A stretch of DNA of 64,000 nt. Origin: Labilithrix sp. GTDB taxonomy: Bacteria > Myxococcota_A > Polyangia > Polyangiales > Polyangiaceae. This document shows, in pieces, positions 25,287-37,362 of the stretch. Made by a program: the position numbers and the translations under genes. A model generated the notes under the pieces. That model was not told the origin of the DNA and ran no database searches. It saw only the letters and a program-made list of their open reading frames with translations. The stretch is taken from positions 1-64,000 of the forward strand of contig JAHBWC010000039.1 of the NCBI GenBank assembly GCA_019637225.1, given 5' to 3'. Numbering within the stretch: the stretch's first letter is position 1; the number at the start of each line of letters is the position of its first letter.

Positions 25287-26534
25287 TCACGAGCGTGTCG
25301 GCGCTCGGTCGTCGGGGGCGAGGTCGGGGGCGAGGTCGGGGTCGGGGTCGGGGGCGGGGGCGGGGGCGAGGGCGCGGGCGGGGTCGGGGGCGTGAGAGTG
25401 GGCGCGGGCGTCGACGTGCTCGTGCTCGTGGGAGTGAGCGTCGGCGTGCTCGTGCCCGTGAGCGTGATCGTGGGAGTGAGCGTCGGCGTGCTCGTGGTCG
25501 TGGTGGAGGTCCGGGACGTGCGGGTGGTCGTGGACCTGCCGCTCGTGGCGATGCGCGTGGGTGTGCTCTCCCTCCGGCATCGGCTCGTGTGTGTGATCGT
25601 GGTGTCCGTCGTCGTGGCGATGGGCGTGCTCGTGCTCGAGCGGCTCGTGCACGTGCGCGTGGCCGTGGCGCTCCGTCAGGTGGAGCACGAGGCCGGCGAT
25701 CATCGCGATCGCCGAGACGGCCGTGACGACGCTCGCGGGCTCGCCGAGAGCAGACGCGAGGGCGGCTCCCCAGAACGGCCCCGAGGCGAAGACGGACGCC
25801 GTTCGCCCGGCGCCGATCGCGCGCTGCGCGCGGAGGTAGAGCTGCAAGCTCGCGCCGTAGCCCGTCGCGCCGACGAGCACGAGGCCGGCGGCCGCGAGCG
25901 CCGGCGGCCATGCTTCACGGAGGGCGAGCGCCGCGCCGAGGGAGAGCGCCGCGCCGATGGCCCCCTTCCCGGCCACCACCGCGGCCGGATCGAGCGCGGA
26001 GAGCGGCTTCGCGAGCGCGTTGTCGAACGCCCACGCGAGCGCCGCGCCGGCGATCGCGGCGAGCCCGACGACGCTCGACGCGCCGCCCGCTTCGCCCGCG
26101 CGATCGAGCACGAGGAGCGCGCCTCCGGCGAGCAAGACGAGCGCGGCCGCCGCGACGCGCCGACCGACGTGCTCGCGGTAGAGCAGGCGCGCGAGCGCGA
26201 TCGTGAAGAGCGCTTCGAGGTTCAGCATCAACGACGCCGCGATTCCGCTCGTCCGCGCGAGGCCCCAGGCGAGCAGCGCCGGCGCAACGGCGGCGCCGGC
26301 GAGCGCGACCGCGAAGAGACGCGGGACGTGCGTCCGCCCGAGCGGCGCCTCGGCCCTCGAACGCGCGCCGGCGCCGACGAGCGCGGCGCCGGCGTAGAGG
26401 AGGAGCGCGATCGCGAACGGGCCGGCCCCCCGGCCAAGCCGCTGCACGAGCGGCGTCGTCACGCCGAACGCGAGCGCAGACGCCAGCGCGAGCAACGTGC
26501 CGCGGAGAGCCGGACCCGCACCCACCGCGGGCAT
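25287..26534 (-). CDS. EamA (DMT) transporter with His-rich tail
   Basis: A 415-residue membrane protein. Residues 8-288 contain two EamA domains and about ten membrane helices. Residues 290-381 are a tail extremely rich in His (EHAHRHDDGHHDH, HEPMPEGEHTHAHRH, HDHPHVPDLHHDHEH), the sort of segment that binds zinc, nickel or cobalt ions. It ends in an Asp/Pro/Ala-rich stretch. Related EamA proteins with similar tails (HEPLEH..., DLHH...) occur in other bacteria, so it is a family feature. The substrate is unknown; a link to metal sensing or export is inferred. The ATG is at 26534. Confidence 0.85.
   Translation of the reverse strand: MPAVGAGPALRGTLLALASALAFGVTTPLVQRLGRGAGPFAIALLLYAGAALVGAGARSRAEAPLGRTHVPRLFAVALAGAAVAPALLAWGLARTSGIAASLMLNLEALFTIALARLLYREHVGRRVAAAALVLLAGGALLVLDRAGEAGGASSVVGLAAIAGAALAWAFDNALAKPLSALDPAAVVAGKGAIGAALSLGAALALREAWPPALAAAGLVLVGATGYGASLQLYLRAQRAIGAGRTASVFASGPFWGAALASALGEPASVVTAVSAIAMIAGLVLHLTERHGHAHVHEPLEHEHAHRHDDGHHDHTHEPMPEGEHTHAHRHERQVHDHPHVPDLHHDHEHADAHSHDHAHGHEHADAHSHEHEHVDARAHSHAPDPARALAPAPAPDPDPDLAPDLAPDDRAPTRS
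25314..25390 (+). repeat. G-run-rich tract (possible G-quadruplex)
   Basis: On the plus strand this 77-base stretch has ten runs of three to five G, separated by one to seven bases. It is the template strand of the end of the EamA gene, where it codes the DPDPD/APDLAPD tail. The spacing meets the usual G-quadruplex pattern. Confidence 0.6.
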
Positions 26535-30635: not shown

Positions 30636-32381
30636 TCACGCGAGCAGCGCGCGCACAGCGTCTTCCTCGAGGTGCACGAGGAGCACGACGAAGTCGGCAG
30701 GGCGCGCGGTCGCGAGCGCGCCACGCAGCGCGTCGACCTCCGACGCTGCGATGGTGACGGCTTCGGGCGCGAGCCCGAGCGCGAGAAGCGCGCGGCGGAA
30801 CACCTCCGGGACCTCGCCCGGCGCACGCCCGCGGAGGTAGTCGGGCAGCTCGCGGAGGACGACGCGATCGGCGCCGGCCTCGACCACGGCGCGGGCCACG
30901 GCGGCGATGTCGCGATCGCTCCGGTCGCCCGGGCTGCCCGTGATCACCGTGAGCGCGCCGCGCGCGGGCGAACCGCGGAGCGACGTGACGAGCCGCATCA
31001 CGGCGCGCACGCCCTCGGCGTTGTGGCCGAAATCCAGCACGATTCGCACACCGTCACGCTCGACGACCACGCTCCGGCGAGGATTGTCTTCCGCGGTGAA
31101 CCCCTCGAGCGCCCGCGCGATCGCCGCCGCGGGCAGCCCGAGCGCGAGCGCCGCGGCCGTCGCGCCGAGGGCGTTCTCGACGTTGAAGCGCGCCGAGCCG
31201 CCGAACGCGATCGGGATCGCGGCGACGTCGGCCAGCGCGGTCTCCTGCTCCCCCCGCGCGTGGACGATCCGCCCGGCCGCGGCGAACACGACGTCCCCTC
31301 CGGACGCGCGGTGCCGCGCAATCACGCCGCGCGCCGCGTCGGTCTCGGGCCCGTCGGCGTCGAGGTCGGCGAAGAACGTGACCCGCGGACGTCCGCCTCC
31401 GAGCGCGACGAGCCGCGGATCGCGCGCGTTGAGGACGGCGGTGCCGCTCGGCAGCAGCGCCTCGACGATCACCGCCTTCGCGCGCGCCATCGCATCGAGA
31501 TCGTCGATGCCGTAGCCGCCGACGTGATCGTCGCTCACGTTGGTGACGAGCGCCACGTCGCACCCGTCGACGGCGAGCCCGCGCCGCAGGATCCCGCCGC
31601 GCGCGGTCTCGAGCACCGCGAGGTCCACGTCCGGCCGCTGGAGGACGACGCGCGCCGCGGCCGGCCCGGTCCAGTCGCCTTCGTCGATCACGTCGGTCCC
31701 GATCGTGATCGCGTCGCTCGAGGTCGAGCCCACGCGCAGGTTCGCCTCCCGCCCCATGCGAGCGAGCAGCCGCGTCGAGGTGGTCTTGCCGTTCGTCCCC
31801 GTGACGAGGGCGACCGGAACGCGGCCGAGGCGCTCCCAGTCGACGGCGTCCGCCGCCGGGAGCGCGCCGCGCGGCCACGTCTGCGAGCGCGCCCCGAGGC
31901 CGAGGCTGACCTGCGCGTCGTCCCACAGGAGAGGGACGTCACGCCGCGCCGCCTCCTCCGCGAGCCGAGAGAGCGCGGCGCTCCGATCGCGCGCGAGCAT
32001 CGCCGCGATCTCCGCGCGCTTCGGCTCGAGCGCGAGCGGTGCCCTGCCGAGGACCCGCTCGCACGCGGAGAGCGCCGCCCACTCGCTCATCTCGGCGCAG
32101 GCGAGCATCACGTCGATCGGCGCGGCGTAGCCGAGCACGGTGCCGCCCGCGTGAGGCCGCTCGATCGGCGAGACCTCCGGCGAAAAGCCGAGGGCCTCGC
32201 GCATCCTCCCGAGCTCCTCGAGGTACGTCGCGCGCACGCGCGCGCGATCCTCCCCTTCGTCGATCGCCAGCTCGACGATCACGAGCGGCGAGCGCGAGAG
32301 GAGGTTCGGCCCCGTCAACCGCCGAGCGTCGACGAGCCGGGCGCCGGCGGCCACCGGGGTAGCGTCCTCGGGTGCGGTCAC
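30636..32381 (-). CDS. CphA-like Mur ligase lacking the ATP-grasp domain
   Basis: A 581-residue protein. Residues 15-185 correspond loosely to the N-terminal domain of CphA (RLVDARRLTGPNLL at the start, WDDAQVSLGLGARSQTW near 153-169). Residues 186-560 are a Mur ligase domain with P-loop GTNGKTT (195-201), LETARGGILRRG, VTNVSDDHVG, and a FGHNAEGVRAV motif. The central ATP-grasp module that adds Asp in full CphA is missing. It is encoded directly after cphA (GTG 32381, six bases after its stop). It may add one amino acid, make primers or help CphA, and this is inference. Confidence 0.85.
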   Translation of the reverse strand: MTAPEDATPVAAGARLVDARRLTGPNLLSRSPLVIVELAIDEGEDRARVRATYLEELGRMREALGFSPEVSPIERPHAGGTVLGYAAPIDVMLACAEMSEWAALSACERVLGRAPLALEPKRAEIAAMLARDRSAALSRLAEEAARRDVPLLWDDAQVSLGLGARSQTWPRGALPAADAVDWERLGRVPVALVTGTNGKTTSTRLLARMGREANLRVGSTSSDAITIGTDVIDEGDWTGPAAARVVLQRPDVDLAVLETARGGILRRGLAVDGCDVALVTNVSDDHVGGYGIDDLDAMARAKAVIVEALLPSGTAVLNARDPRLVALGGGRPRVTFFADLDADGPETDAARGVIARHRASGGDVVFAAAGRIVHARGEQETALADVAAIPIAFGGSARFNVENALGATAAALALGLPAAAIARALEGFTAEDNPRRSVVVERDGVRIVLDFGHNAEGVRAVMRLVTSLRGSPARGALTVITGSPGDRSDRDIAAVARAVVEAGADRVVLRELPDYLRGRAPGEVPEVFRRALLALGLAPEAVTIAASEVDALRGALATARPADFVVLLVHLEEDAVRALLA

Positions 32382-32386
32382 GCGCG

Positions 32387-35194
32387 TCAGTCGTCCGTCT
32401 CGCGCGCGAGTCGGACGCCGCGCTCGTCCTGGATCATGGCGGCGCCGTCGAGGAGGCCGTCGCCGAGGGTGAGCGACGAGCCGAGCGCCGGCGGGAGGGC
32501 GCCGCTCTGCGCCGGCGGCGGCGACGAGCCCCCTGTCGCCTCGACCCACTCGGGCTTGAAGTAGATGACCTGCTTCCAGGTGCGCGAGACCTTGTCCGCG
32601 AAGAGCAGGAGCAGGTCGCCGCGCTTCGCCGAGCGGAGGGCCGCGTCGATCGCCGCCTGCTCGTCGGGGACGACCTCGAGGCTCTCGCGCGGAAACCCGC
32701 CGGCGAGGAGCTCGGCCTCCATCATGCGCGGGATCTCGTCCGACCCGCGCCCGCGCAGATCGTCGTCGCGGCGGAGGATGATGCGGTCGAACACCTTGCC
32801 TGCCGCGCGCGCGATCGCCCGGATGTCCTCGTCGCGCCGGTCTCCCGGACCCGACAGGACGCACACGCGCTGACCGGTGCACTCGAGCCGCTGCGCGAAG
32901 TCGCTCATCGCCTGCACGGCGGCCGGGTTGTGCCCGTAGTCGACGATCACCTTGAACGGCAGCTCGTCGTAGACGTTCGTGCGGCCCGGCACCTGGAAGT
33001 ACGAGGTGTCGAACGTGCGGAGGCCCTGACGGATGTTCTCGACCTTGACGCCCATCGCGTACGCCATGACCGCGGCGAACATGGCGTTCTGCACGTTGTG
33101 CATCGCCTTGCCCTCGAAGGTCGCCGGGACGAGGTGCGTCCAGAGCAGCGGCAGGTGCGCGCCCTTGTCGTAGAGCGTGATCATGTGGCCGTTGATGCCC
33201 TCCTCGAGGACGACCGCGAGCCCGCCGGCGCGGAGATGCTTGCGCACGAGCTCGTGGCGCGGGTTCATCGTCACGTAGGCGATGCGCGCCGCCTTCGTGT
33301 GATCGGCCATCCGGAGGCAGTGGAGATCGTCGGCGTTGAGCACCGCGCAGTCGCGCGCGACCTCGACGACGATGCGCTTCACCTCGGCGAGCTGCTCGAG
33401 CGTGTCGACGCCCTTGGTCCCGAGGTGGTCCTCGGCGATGTTGAGCACCGCGCCGACGTTGCACGTCCGGTAGCCCATGCCCGCGCGGAGCAGCCCGCCG
33501 CGCGCGGTCTCGAGGACGGCGAGGTCGACCGAGGGATCGCGGAGGACGATCTGCGCGGACTGCGGGCCGGTCATGTCGCCGACGACCGTGCGCTCGCCGT
33601 CGATGTAGACGCCGTCGGTAGTCGTGAGGCCGACGGTGTGCCCGTTCATCTTCTGGATGTGCGCGAGCATGCGCGCGGTGGTCGTCTTGCCGTTCGTGCC
33701 GGTGAGCGCGGCGATCGGGATCCGCGCCGGAGCCCCGGCCGGGAACAGCATGTCGAGCACGGGGCCGGCGACGTCCCGCGGCTTGCCCTCCGTCGGCGCG
33801 ACGTGCATTCGGAAGCCGGGCGCCGCGTTGACCTCGCAGATGCCGCCGCCCACCTCGCGGTAGCTCTCGGAGATGTCGGACGTGATGAAGTCGACACCGC
33901 AGACGTCGAGGCCGATCGCCTTCGCCGCGCGGACGGCCATCTCGCGGTTGTCGGGGTGCACCACGTCGGTGAGGTCGATCGCGGTGCCGCCCGTCGAGAG
34001 GTTCCCCGTCCCGCGCAGGTAGAACACCTCGCCGCGCGGCAGCACGGTGTCCTTCGTCACGCTCTTCGCGGTCATCAGGCGCTCGGCCTGCGCGTCGAGC
34101 TCGAGCCGCGTCAGCACCTTCTCGTGGCCGATGCCGCGGCGCGGATCGGCGTTCACGAGCTCGACGAGCTCGGCGATCGTGCGCTCGCCGTCGCCGACGA
34201 CGTGTCCGGGGACGCGCTTCGCGACCGCGATGAGCTCGCCGCCGACGACGAGCATGCGGTGATCGAAGCCGGTGAGAAACGTCTCCACGACCACGCTGCG
34301 GGCGTGCTCGCGCGCGCGCTCGAAGGCGACGCGCACTTCTTCGTCGGTCTTGAGGTCGAGCGACACGCCGCGGCCGTGGTTGGCGTCGAGCGGCTTGACG
34401 ACGACGGGGTAGCCGAGGCGGTTCGCGACGGACACGGCGCCGTCAGCCGTGCGGACGAGACGCTGGCGCGGCACCGGGAGGCCGAGATCGCCGAGGATGC
34501 GGTTCGTCTCCTCCTTGTCGGAGGCGATCGACACCGCGATGTGGCGCGTCTCCGAGGTCACGGTCGCCTGGATCCGCTTCTGGTACTTGCCGTGCCCGAA
34601 CTGGACGAGGCTGTAGTCGTTCAGCCGGAGCCACGGGATGTCACGCGCCTCGGCTGCGCGGACGAGCGAGCCCGTCGACGGGCCGAGCTGCCGGCGCTGC
34701 GCGTAGTCGATCAGCTCGACGAGCTCGGTCTTGAAGTCGAACGGCCTCGCGTCGGCGCCGGCTGCGGGCCGGAGCTCCTCGGGCAACAGATCGTAGAGGA
34801 GCTTGATCGCGAGATCGCCCGCGGCCTCGCCGACGCGCTCCTCTTCGTACTCGTAGACGACGTGGTAGCGGCCCGGAGTCCCCTCGCCGCGCGTCTTGCC
34901 GAACGAGACGCTCGCGCCCGTCAGGACCTGGAGCTCGATCGCGACGTGCTCGAGGACGTGCCCGAGCCACGTGCCGCCGTCCTCCGAGAGACGCCGGAGG
35001 AAGCCGCCCTCCACGCCGAACGAGCACGTGTGCGCCTGGAGGCTCGGGAGCGCGCGCACGAGCCCCTCGTTGAAGCCGGGGATCTTCGCGCTCGGCCAGG
35101 CCTCGAGCGGGCCGAGGTCGATCGTGAGGCGCATCACGGGGAAGTGCGCGTAGAGGCTGGGACCGCGGTAGATGCGACGTTCGAGCAGATCCAT
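32387..35194 (-). CDS. cphA: cyanophycin synthetase CphA
   Basis: A 935-residue enzyme that builds multi-L-arginyl-poly-L-aspartate without ribosomes. The N domain (1-165) has GPLEAWPSAKIPGF and LEHVAIELQ. The ATP-grasp domain (about 215-480), which adds Asp, has VVKPLDANHGRGVS and GGGICEVNAAPGFRMH. The Mur-ligase domain (490-880), which adds Arg to the side chain, has GTNGKTT (499-505, Lys503), ETARGGLLRAG, NIAEDHLG and VDYGHNPAA. All modules are complete. The ATG at 35194 follows cphB by three bases. It is the third gene of the iadA-cphB-cphA-ligase run. Confidence 0.96.
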   Translation of the reverse strand: MDLLERRIYRGPSLYAHFPVMRLTIDLGPLEAWPSAKIPGFNEGLVRALPSLQAHTCSFGVEGGFLRRLSEDGGTWLGHVLEHVAIELQVLTGASVSFGKTRGEGTPGRYHVVYEYEEERVGEAAGDLAIKLLYDLLPEELRPAAGADARPFDFKTELVELIDYAQRRQLGPSTGSLVRAAEARDIPWLRLNDYSLVQFGHGKYQKRIQATVTSETRHIAVSIASDKEETNRILGDLGLPVPRQRLVRTADGAVSVANRLGYPVVVKPLDANHGRGVSLDLKTDEEVRVAFERAREHARSVVVETFLTGFDHRMLVVGGELIAVAKRVPGHVVGDGERTIAELVELVNADPRRGIGHEKVLTRLELDAQAERLMTAKSVTKDTVLPRGEVFYLRGTGNLSTGGTAIDLTDVVHPDNREMAVRAAKAIGLDVCGVDFITSDISESYREVGGGICEVNAAPGFRMHVAPTEGKPRDVAGPVLDMLFPAGAPARIPIAALTGTNGKTTTARMLAHIQKMNGHTVGLTTTDGVYIDGERTVVGDMTGPQSAQIVLRDPSVDLAVLETARGGLLRAGMGYRTCNVGAVLNIAEDHLGTKGVDTLEQLAEVKRIVVEVARDCAVLNADDLHCLRMADHTKAARIAYVTMNPRHELVRKHLRAGGLAVVLEEGINGHMITLYDKGAHLPLLWTHLVPATFEGKAMHNVQNAMFAAVMAYAMGVKVENIRQGLRTFDTSYFQVPGRTNVYDELPFKVIVDYGHNPAAVQAMSDFAQRLECTGQRVCVLSGPGDRRDEDIRAIARAAGKVFDRIILRRDDDLRGRGSDEIPRMMEAELLAGGFPRESLEVVPDEQAAIDAALRSAKRGDLLLLFADKVSRTWKQVIYFKPEWVEATGGSSPPPAQSGALPPALGSSLTLGDGLLDGAAMIQDERGVRLARETDD

Positions 35195-35197
35195 GGC

Positions 35198-36025
35198 TCA
35201 CTCCCCGGGTGCGCTCGCGCGGCGCGTCTCGAGATCGAAAGACCCGCCCGCCGTGAGGACGTGGAGGCGGACGTTGGTGAGACACACCGGGCGGCCCTCC
35301 TTCGTCTCGGCGATCGACGAGTGCGTGAGCTCGGAGGCGTCGACGATCGTGAGCGCGCCGGTGCCGACCACGGTGAGCTTGCGCGTGTGGTCGATGAACG
35401 CCGCGGTGTCCTCGTCGAGCCCGACGCCGACGGCGAACGGGTTGTAGGCGAGCGCCGTGAGGAGGCGCCCGAGGCGGTCGCGCTGCCGGAAGTGCTGGTC
35501 GATCATGATGCGGTTCGTCAGGCCGAAGCCGGGGACGAGCGCCACGGCGCCGGCGTGCGGCGTGTGACCCTCGGCGCCGAACGCGATCATGTGCTCGCTG
35601 AGGATGGCGGCCCCGGCGCTCGTCCCGCCGACGGCGACGCCGCGCGCGTTGGCGCGGCGGATCGCCTTCGCGATGGCGGTGCCGCCGAGGATCGTCGTCA
35701 GGCGGAGCTGGTTTCCGCCGGTCACGAAGATGCCGTCGGCCTTCTCGATGTAGTCGAGCCACTCGTCCTTGCCGGCGTCCTCGCGCGAGGCGAGCGGCAG
35801 CGCCTTCGCCTCGTCGGCGCCGAGCTTGCGAAAGAGCTTCTCGTAGCGGCGGCCCGTGTCCTCGAGCTTCGACGCGGTCGGGATGATGACGATCCGCGAG
35901 CCGGCGCCGCCCGACACGTCGACGAACTTGCGGAGGATCGTGGTCGTCCCCTCTTTGTCTTCGGCGCCGCCGATGGGGACGATGAAGCCGCGCTTGTTGT
36001 CGGCCTCCACTCTTGCTGGGCTCAT
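35198..36025 (-). CDS. cphB: cyanophycinase CphB
   Basis: A 275-residue serine peptidase of family S51 that cuts cyanophycin to beta-Asp-Arg dipeptides. The nucleophile is Ser136 in GGTSAGAAI. VTGGNQLRLT at 101-110 and IDQHFRQRDRLGRL near 175 are family marks. No signal peptide is present, so it acts in the cytoplasm on stored granules. The ATG at 36025 is just before the conserved RGFIVPIGGAEDK; longer in-frame starts lie upstream but the extra sequence is Arg-rich and unconserved-looking. It is next to cphA and downstream of iadA. Confidence 0.95.
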   Translation of the reverse strand: MSPARVEADNKRGFIVPIGGAEDKEGTTTILRKFVDVSGGAGSRIVIIPTASKLEDTGRRYEKLFRKLGADEAKALPLASREDAGKDEWLDYIEKADGIFVTGGNQLRLTTILGGTAIAKAIRRANARGVAVGGTSAGAAILSEHMIAFGAEGHTPHAGAVALVPGFGLTNRIMIDQHFRQRDRLGRLLTALAYNPFAVGVGLDEDTAAFIDHTRKLTVVGTGALTIVDASELTHSSIAETKEGRPVCLTNVRLHVLTAGGSFDLETRRASAPGE

Positions 36026-36174: not shown

Positions 36175-37362
36175 CTACCGGGCCGGGGCCCGGCGCTCGA
36201 ACGTGCCCTCGACGACGGGGATCCCCCGGCGCACCAGGAAGCGGCCGCGGGCCATCACGTCGCGGGGGCCGCCGCGGTCGTCGAGCGCGACCAGGTCCGC
36301 GTCGGCTCCGAGCGCGATCCGGCCCTTCGACGCCAAGCGGAGGACGGAGGCCACGTTGCTCGTGAAGACGGGGAGCACGTCCTCGAGCGCGTGACCGCGC
36401 GCGAGCAGGAGAGAGAGCGTCTCGGCGAGGGCGCCCGGGCGTCCGACGTCCATCGCCGCGATCCGCCCGTCGGCGTCGAAGGTCGGGAGGCAGCCCCCGC
36501 CGTCCGAGCTGCACGTGAGGAGCTCTCGCGGCGCTCCGCTCGCGAGGTACGCCGCGACGGCGTCGGGCGCGGAGAGCGCGTCTTCGCCCTCCTCGACGGG
36601 GAACGCGGTGACGTCGACCGGAACGCCGTCCTTCGCGAGGGAGAGCGCCTCGTCGAAGAGCCGCTTCTTCCGGTTCACGTGGGTCGGATAGAACGTGCTC
36701 GGAGGCAGCTCGGTCTCGTCGAGCGCGCGCCGAACGAGCGCGAGCCCGCGCGGGCCGTCGCCGAGGTGGAGGTGGAGGACCCCCGCCTTGCCGCTCATCA
36801 TGCCGGCGACGTGGCAGTCGGCGGCGACGCGCACGAGCTCGTCGAACGTCGGCTGCGACGAGCGGTGATCGCTGATCGCGAGCTCGCCGACCCCGAGGAT
36901 GGGATCGACGAACACGACGTCCGAGCGCACCGAGCCGGTGAGGGTCAAAGGCGGCATGGCGTAGCCGCCCGTCCAGCAGTGCGCCGAGAGCCCTTCGGCG
37001 CGGAGCCCGAGCGTGGCGGCCACGAGCGACGCCATCGTGCGCGTCGTGCCGTCGGTCCCGAGGACGCCGATCGCCGTCGTGATCCCGGCGGTCGAGAGCT
37101 CCGACAGGAGCACGCGCGGGACGCGCGAGGCCGGTCCCGACTCGCCTCCGCCGCCCGTCAGGTGCACGTGCGCGTCGACGAAGCCGGGGACGAGCCGCGC
37201 CCCGTCGAGGTCGACGACCTCGCAGCCAGGGACGGCGACGGCGTCGATGCGCTCTTCGATCGCGAGGATCGCGCCGCCGCCGAGGAGCAGATCGCGGCGG
37301 CCGAGCCGAGCGGGCGCGTAGACCTCGGCGTTGCGGAGGAGCGTGAGGGCAGGCGTCGTCAC
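36175..37362 (-). CDS. iadA: beta-aspartyl (isoaspartyl) dipeptidase IadA
   Basis: A 395-residue metallo-dipeptidase of the amidohydrolase superfamily that splits beta-Asp-Arg, the product of CphB, into Asp and Arg. Metal-binding parts are DAHVHLTGGGGES (His65, His67, Glu74), HLHLG (His199), YPTHVNR (His228) and SSDGGG (Asp287). Glu160 in GVGELAISDHRS is near the position of the carbamylated Lys162 of the E. coli enzyme. The start is GTG 37362. It is the first gene of the cyanophycin run, 149 bases before cphB, and is divergent from the acyl-CoA synthetase gene. Confidence 0.93.
   Translation of the reverse strand: MTTPALTLLRNAEVYAPARLGRRDLLLGGGAILAIEERIDAVAVPGCEVVDLDGARLVPGFVDAHVHLTGGGGESGPASRVPRVLLSELSTAGITTAIGVLGTDGTTRTMASLVAATLGLRAEGLSAHCWTGGYAMPPLTLTGSVRSDVVFVDPILGVGELAISDHRSSQPTFDELVRVAADCHVAGMMSGKAGVLHLHLGDGPRGLALVRRALDETELPPSTFYPTHVNRKKRLFDEALSLAKDGVPVDVTAFPVEEGEDALSAPDAVAAYLASGAPRELLTCSSDGGGCLPTFDADGRIAAMDVGRPGALAETLSLLLARGHALEDVLPVFTSNVASVLRLASKGRIALGADADLVALDDRGGPRDVMARGRFLVRRGIPVVEGTFERRAPAR

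Follow-up and report, generated by a model that had tools for sequence, protein, structure and literature searches.

The window analysed here, 64,000 nt of Labilithrix sp. contig JAHBWC010000039.1, carries on its minus strand a cph operon in the order iadA-cphB-cphA-cphA', which occupies the stretch between 37.4 kb and 30.6 kb. The last gene, here designated cphA' (product CphA'), is a real open reading frame with exactly the limits originally predicted (30636-32381), read from 32381 to 30636. Its GTG start at 32381 is separated by a gap of 5 nt from the stop of cphA, the end of which lies at 32387. The genes of the operon and the parts of cphA' are as follows.

36175..37362, minus strand: iadA-like gene, putative isoaspartyl dipeptidase by its family; a conserved neighbour, start uncertain
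35198..36025, minus strand: cphB, cyanophycinase, 275 aa; homologues carry the name cyanophycinase
32387..35194, minus strand: cphA, 935 aa, a complete cyanophycin synthetase 1 in which the zinc site, the ATP-grasp and the M domain are all present
30636..32381, minus strand: cphA', G-less cyanophycin-synthetase-like Mur ligase, 581 aa, GTG start; from sequence and domain searches
32046..32345, minus strand: shrunken CphA-type N domain (residues 13-112), zinc-peptidase helix absent; from hhalign, model and structural alignment
31857..32030, minus strand: stump of the ATP-grasp (G) domain (residues 118-175), RDVPLLWDDAQVSLGLG (in CphA: RDIPWLRLNDYSLVQFGHG); from hhalign
31098..31826, minus strand: M core (residues 186-428), with P-loop, LETARGG and SDDHVG; from Pfam and alignment
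31779..31802, minus strand: P-loop TGTNGKTT (residues 194-201), conserved in alignments
30639..31097, minus strand: M lid (residues 429-581); from Pfam, alignment and structural alignment
30825..30839, minus strand: YLRGR (residues 515-519), the remodelled amino-acid loop, where CphA1 has DDxxRGR and MurE has DNPR

Elsewhere in the window (25287-26534, minus strand), a membrane-transporter-like protein is encoded whose long His/Asp-rich tail (HDHAHGHEH repeats) possibly binds metal.

The CphA encoded immediately upstream of cphA' scores 1150 bits against TIGR02068 and has 7lgn and 7lgm as its nearest solved structures. Both the Cys and the HxxEH of the primer-making site are there, and the catalytic residues of the M domain are intact. 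With its M domain intact, this enzyme should make cyanophycin alone, as the related enzymes of Acinetobacter and Tatumella do; in M-domain trees, the CphA1 of these two genera fall inside the clade of CphAs that are partnered by cphA'.

CphA' had been described at the outset as a 581-residue protein with a CphA-type N-terminal region and a Mur-ligase domain with a P-loop but no Asp-adding ATP-grasp module, and this description was borne out in each of its parts. Pfam recovers both Mur domains complete (Mur_ligase_M at residues 193-411, with the P-loop, and Mur_ligase_C at 436-567) and gives no match to an ATP-grasp domain, of which a stump of about 60 residues is left according to hhalign. The TIGR02068 match (351 bits against a cut-off of 850) is confined to the M part, and PF18921, the Pfam model of the CphA N region, is blind to the N region of cphA' and gives no match. 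Profile-profile alignment with hhalign pairs residues 14-167 of cphA' with residues 1-206 of CphA (E 3e-7, P 93%); the value is similar against the solo CphA set and weaker (E ~0.002) when the comparison is narrowed to the partner CphAs. Because the profile match covers the first part of the ATP-grasp, the remainder of G must be gone between the stump and the M domain.

Structure prediction and alignment, which had been proposed as a check, gave an AlphaFold model (pLDDT 94.6, pTM 0.93) that superposes on SuCphA1 except for the G domain (model residues 13-580 against SuCphA1 1-867; 544 residues, Z ~36, rmsd 4.5). As modelled, CphA' is an end-to-end match to cyanophycin synthetase minus the G domain, and its predicted fold keeps the N-M arrangement of SuCphA1, in which cyanophycin binds between the N and M domains (PMC9427784). 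Alignment and model both suggest that the helix bearing the zinc ligands is absent, and in a pattern count the C..HxxEH primer-making zinc site was found in 0 of 58 cphA' sequences and in 48 of 52 partner CphAs. The partner CphAs of loci L077, L117, L038 and L039, in which a pattern search finds no C..HxxEH, might depend on primers. An alignment of 26 cphA' sequences contains 46 invariant columns; these columns, and the recurrence of the gene pair across phyla, exclude a chance origin of the pattern. In some Lysobacteraceae (L162, L163, L164, L165), about 200 residues are inserted in frame into cphA' between the N domain and the G stump; the insertion (e.g., in L165:4374-6620) contains an endonuclease-like DUF559 domain (PF04480, 103 bits) and is accompanied by SSALRAPSP-type repeats.

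Among the cphA' sequences, Lys199 (P-loop), Glu258, Asp285/His286, Lys302, Arg436, Asp450 and His453 are 98-100% conserved. M-domain residues tied to ATP/Mg or to activity in CphA1 are K499, E558, D585/H586, R731 and H748, and several of the matching CphA1 residues bind ATP/Mg in TeCphA1 or, when mutated, inactivate the SuCphA1 M domain (numbering and data of PMC9427784 and PMC9262961); their counterparts in cphA' are likewise 98-100% conserved. The amino-acid loop of the lid is remodelled. Residue D801 of SuCphA1, which lies in DDxxRGR, is Asp in 96-100% of CphA1, whichever class is taken, and has been lost from cphA', the loop of which reads (K/R)(E/D)xxxYLRGR and is one residue longer than that of CphA1. 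The D801 motif aligns with the DNPR motif of MurE, which reads the amino acid in that enzyme. At the position of E857 of SuCphA1, most CphA1 have Glu or Asp, whereas 85% of cphA' have His; going by the alignment with MurE, D801 and E857 would both contact arginine. In the M core, R244 and R267 of cphA' are 100% conserved at two positions that are variable in CphA. A conserved core with a remodelled loop would fit an active ligase with an altered choice of amino acid.

CphA1 (TIGR02068; 7lg5, 7lgq, 7wae, 7lgm, 7lgn) and cphA' thus have N and M domains in the same order and of the same fold, the same ATP-site residues, and the same locus; unlike CphA1, cphA' is without the Asp-adding ATP-grasp and the zinc-peptidase site and has an altered amino-acid loop, and its M domain is 35% identical to that of SuCphA1. 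Of the features that define CphA1, it possesses the N domain and an M domain with catalytic residues, and it lacks the G domain, C..HxxEH, DDxxRGR and a TIGR02068 score above 850. Cyanobacterial CphA2, a shortened CphA paralogue (PMC9262961, PMC9427784), retains an active G domain but no longer has the M lid or the Arg step, whereas cphA' is the reverse, with G absent and both Mur domains complete. Tandem cphA copies in Betaproteobacteria and activated-sludge bacteria (Accumulibacter, Tetrasphaera) (PMC10687191) resemble the cphA-cphA' pair in being two adjoining cphA-type genes, and one of the Tetrasphaera copies is the shorter; in the betaproteobacterial tandems (L111, L126, L134, L136, L138, L143), however, both proteins have a G domain and the first M domain is degraded. 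ATP-grasp is also found in both proteins of the tandems L056-L059 and L062, and in the cases read, the first protein of the double-ATP-grasp tandems has a degraded M domain with no recognisable P-loop.

MurE, MurT and FPGS share the Mur-ligase middle and C-terminal domains with cphA', but the CphA N domain sets cphA' apart from them. The best NCBIfam match of cphA' outside CphA reaches only 76 bits, and the scores fall below the cut-offs for murE (70.6 vs 257.3), MurT (16.5 vs 800) and folC (35.1 vs 162.65). Trees join cphA' to the CphA M domains and place it at a great distance from two MurE-type proteins encoded in its own genome; together with the hhalign match of the N domain and the structural alignment to SuCphA1, they count against the view that the protein is simply MurE/FPGS-like. 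On sequence grounds, cphA' belongs neither to CphA1 nor to CphA2 nor to MurE/MurT/FPGS.

About 155 of some 1,235 sampled genomes from six groups contain cphA' (counts taken by eye from the listed rows), nearly always directly after a complete cphA. In the window's phylum it is present in 27 of 141 genomes, directly beside cphA in 25 and with CphA elsewhere in the genome in the remaining 2. The order of Lysobacter sp. Root916 has it in about 79 of 250 genomes, and a second CphA-type match accompanies it in 69 of the 70 genomes with a full-length cphA'. The same pairing with cphA is seen in Acidobacteriota (7/247 genomes), Planctomycetota (16/199), Gemmatimonadota (19/150) and Roseobacteraceae (7/248). 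A scan of genome contigs found hosts in Myxococcota, Gemmatimonadota, Acidobacteriota, Planctomycetota, Neomarinimicrobiota, Rhodothermales and Gammaproteobacteria (Dyella, Rhodanobacter, Lysobacter), as well as one Octadecabacter MAG. In RefSeq, plasmids of Ruegeria, Shinella and Roseateles each show the order cyanophycinase, cphA, Mur ligase, and among cultured strains, Shinella zoogloeoides ATCC 19623 and two Ruegeria strains carry the cphA-cphA' pair on complete plasmids.

Exceptions to the pairing are either unlinked, at contig ends or ambiguous (G033, G039, G169, G892, G790, G819, G487), and one genome, G159 (L159), from the order of Lysobacter sp. Root916, is the single clear case of cphA' in which no CphA was found; its contig ends nearby. 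Some CphAs of the partner clade are without cphA' (L060, L064-L066). In the cphA' loci read, the only conserved neighbours found were cphB and iadA or a beta-aspartyl peptidase gene. The distance from the cphA stop to the cphA' start is -4 to +28 nt in most loci, which suggests coupled translation; translational coupling of the two genes is probable. The original prediction had proposed that the two proteins share a task, and the occurrence of cphA' across several phyla almost only with a complete cphA, with G159 and a few contig-end or ambiguous cases aside, supports that proposal.

Two trees of the M domain recover cphA' as a single group that includes neither the partner CphAs nor the other classes of CphA1; the group is moderately supported (FastTree 0.49; SH-aLRT 89 from a quick IQ-TREE run), and branches are long. 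We considered a recent duplication of the neighbouring cphA and set it aside: the trees place cphA' apart from the partners, while an AU test does not reject cphA' and partners as one clade (p 0.14). To judge from these data, cphA' has likely not arisen from its neighbour by recent copying. CphA and cphA' show correlated pairwise identities in the M domain (r = 0.81, with 0/2000 permutations as high), indicating that the two have been co-inherited. The median M-domain identity is 41% for cphA' vs 63% for CphA; cphA' thus changes faster, which is also compatible with weaker constraint. A Chloroflexia MAG (L133:1712-3475) encodes, upstream of cphB-cphA, a distant cphA'-like protein that has the N region, the M domain and YLRGR. 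It has no visible G stump, and for this reason the two-domain N-M form may be old.

Our preferred reading, to which we assign a probability of about 0.42, is that CphA' is an active Mur-type ligase with the polymer from CphA as its substrate, and that it adds an amino acid probably other than arginine, or another one besides arginine. CphA would build the poly-Asp backbone through its ATP-grasp domain; the N domain of CphA' would hold this chain, and its M domain would use ATP to phosphorylate a free Asp side-chain carboxylate and would then join the phosphorylated side chain to an amino acid, giving cyanophycin with mixed side chains. Action on the CphA-made chain we infer from the linkage to cphA and the kept N-M arrangement, and it is the remodelling of the lid loop that makes arginine, at least as the only substrate, improbable. 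The original prediction had also raised the use of a different amino acid; the loop favours that choice, while the ligation itself is a step that we infer. Alternatively, CphA' may attach arginine in another way. In favour of the preferred reading are the near-exclusive occurrence with cphA, the co-inheritance, the conserved catalytic residues, the two invariant arginines of its own and the retained N-M fold, besides the loop; against it stand the intact M domain of the partner, the partner-clade CphAs that lack cphA', and the faster change of cphA'. In a wider form of the preferred reading, N-M cphA' may be an old lineage, split off before or near the origin of the known CphA1 M domains, and several phyla may make mixed cyanophycin, with backbone and Arg from CphA and a second amino acid from CphA'. 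This we regard as possible, with the odds somewhat against it.

Gene neighbourhoods point to no particular amino acid with confidence. Lysine was considered and is a weak lead. In the Ruegeria-type loci L171, L174 and L185, a lysine-dehydrogenase-like gene and an L-piperidine-6-carboxylate dehydrogenase gene lie just upstream of cphB, but lysine-catabolism genes are absent from beside cphB in the other Roseobacteraceae loci read. Some Lysobacteraceae (L163, L164, L203) likewise have an L-piperidine-6-carboxylate dehydrogenase gene after cphA'; in 60 control Lysobacteraceae genomes, however, most of which have no cphA' match, the dehydrogenase gene is near pyrD in most, so that its link to cphA' probably reflects a mere insertion site. 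The pyrD control and the other Roseobacteraceae loci thus undercut the neighbourhood link to lysine.

An extra arginine ligase, filling Asp residues skipped by the M domain of CphA or speeding the Arg step, would also suit the conserved catalytic core and LRGR arginines, the coupling of cphA' to cphA, and the presence in the same operon of CphB and IadA, the normal cyanophycin-degrading enzymes. We consider it unlikely, since cphA' has an altered lid loop where CphA1 carries its nearly invariant acidic residue, and one would not expect a simple dosage copy to branch apart from all CphA1 M domains. A mainly structural or regulatory CphA', forming mixed tetramers with CphA and tuning chain length, granule form or solubility, seems quite improbable: conservation of catalytic residues over several phyla is unexpected of a scaffold, and the genes are unlinked in two genomes of the window's phylum and in G169, even though probable translational coupling and co-inheritance suit assembly, the N-M architecture is retained, and the M core of CphA1 takes part in contacts between subunits (PMC9427784). 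The absence of the Asp-adding domain, together with the new invariant R244 and R267, could mean a small or different acceptor, with CphA' making a separate small molecule (e.g., a beta-aspartyl dipeptide) or capping chain ends and adding no polymer side chain; this is very doubtful, given that the N domain is retained, though shrunken, and that cphA' is almost never found without cphA. Primer making, another of the tasks first proposed, would match the coupling to cphA and the known bottleneck of primer supply in CphA1 (PMC9262961), but is highly improbable because nearly all partner CphAs already have the primer-making site, of which cphA' has neither the motif nor the helix.

CphA1, CphA2 and tandem pairs of G-containing cphA are known already (PMC9262961, PMC9427784, PMC10687191). 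Our literature search found no description of a G-less CphA companion; the tandem-cphA papers of 2002-2013 lay outside its scope, and a prior mention is possible. Tandem cphA genes are reportedly the topic of work by Krehenbrink (2002), Fuser and Steinbuchel (2007) and Adames (2013). Cyanophycin is regarded as the product of one self-sufficient enzyme, and here the cph operon holds a widespread, co-inherited putative second ligase that RefSeq annotates only as 'Mur ligase family protein'. If CphA' is such a ligase, it would be a natural tool for making modified cyanophycin. If the preferred reading is true, bacteria with cphA' may make a modified cyanophycin so far undescribed, and the polymer of many non-cyanobacteria may differ from the cyanophycin that has been assumed.
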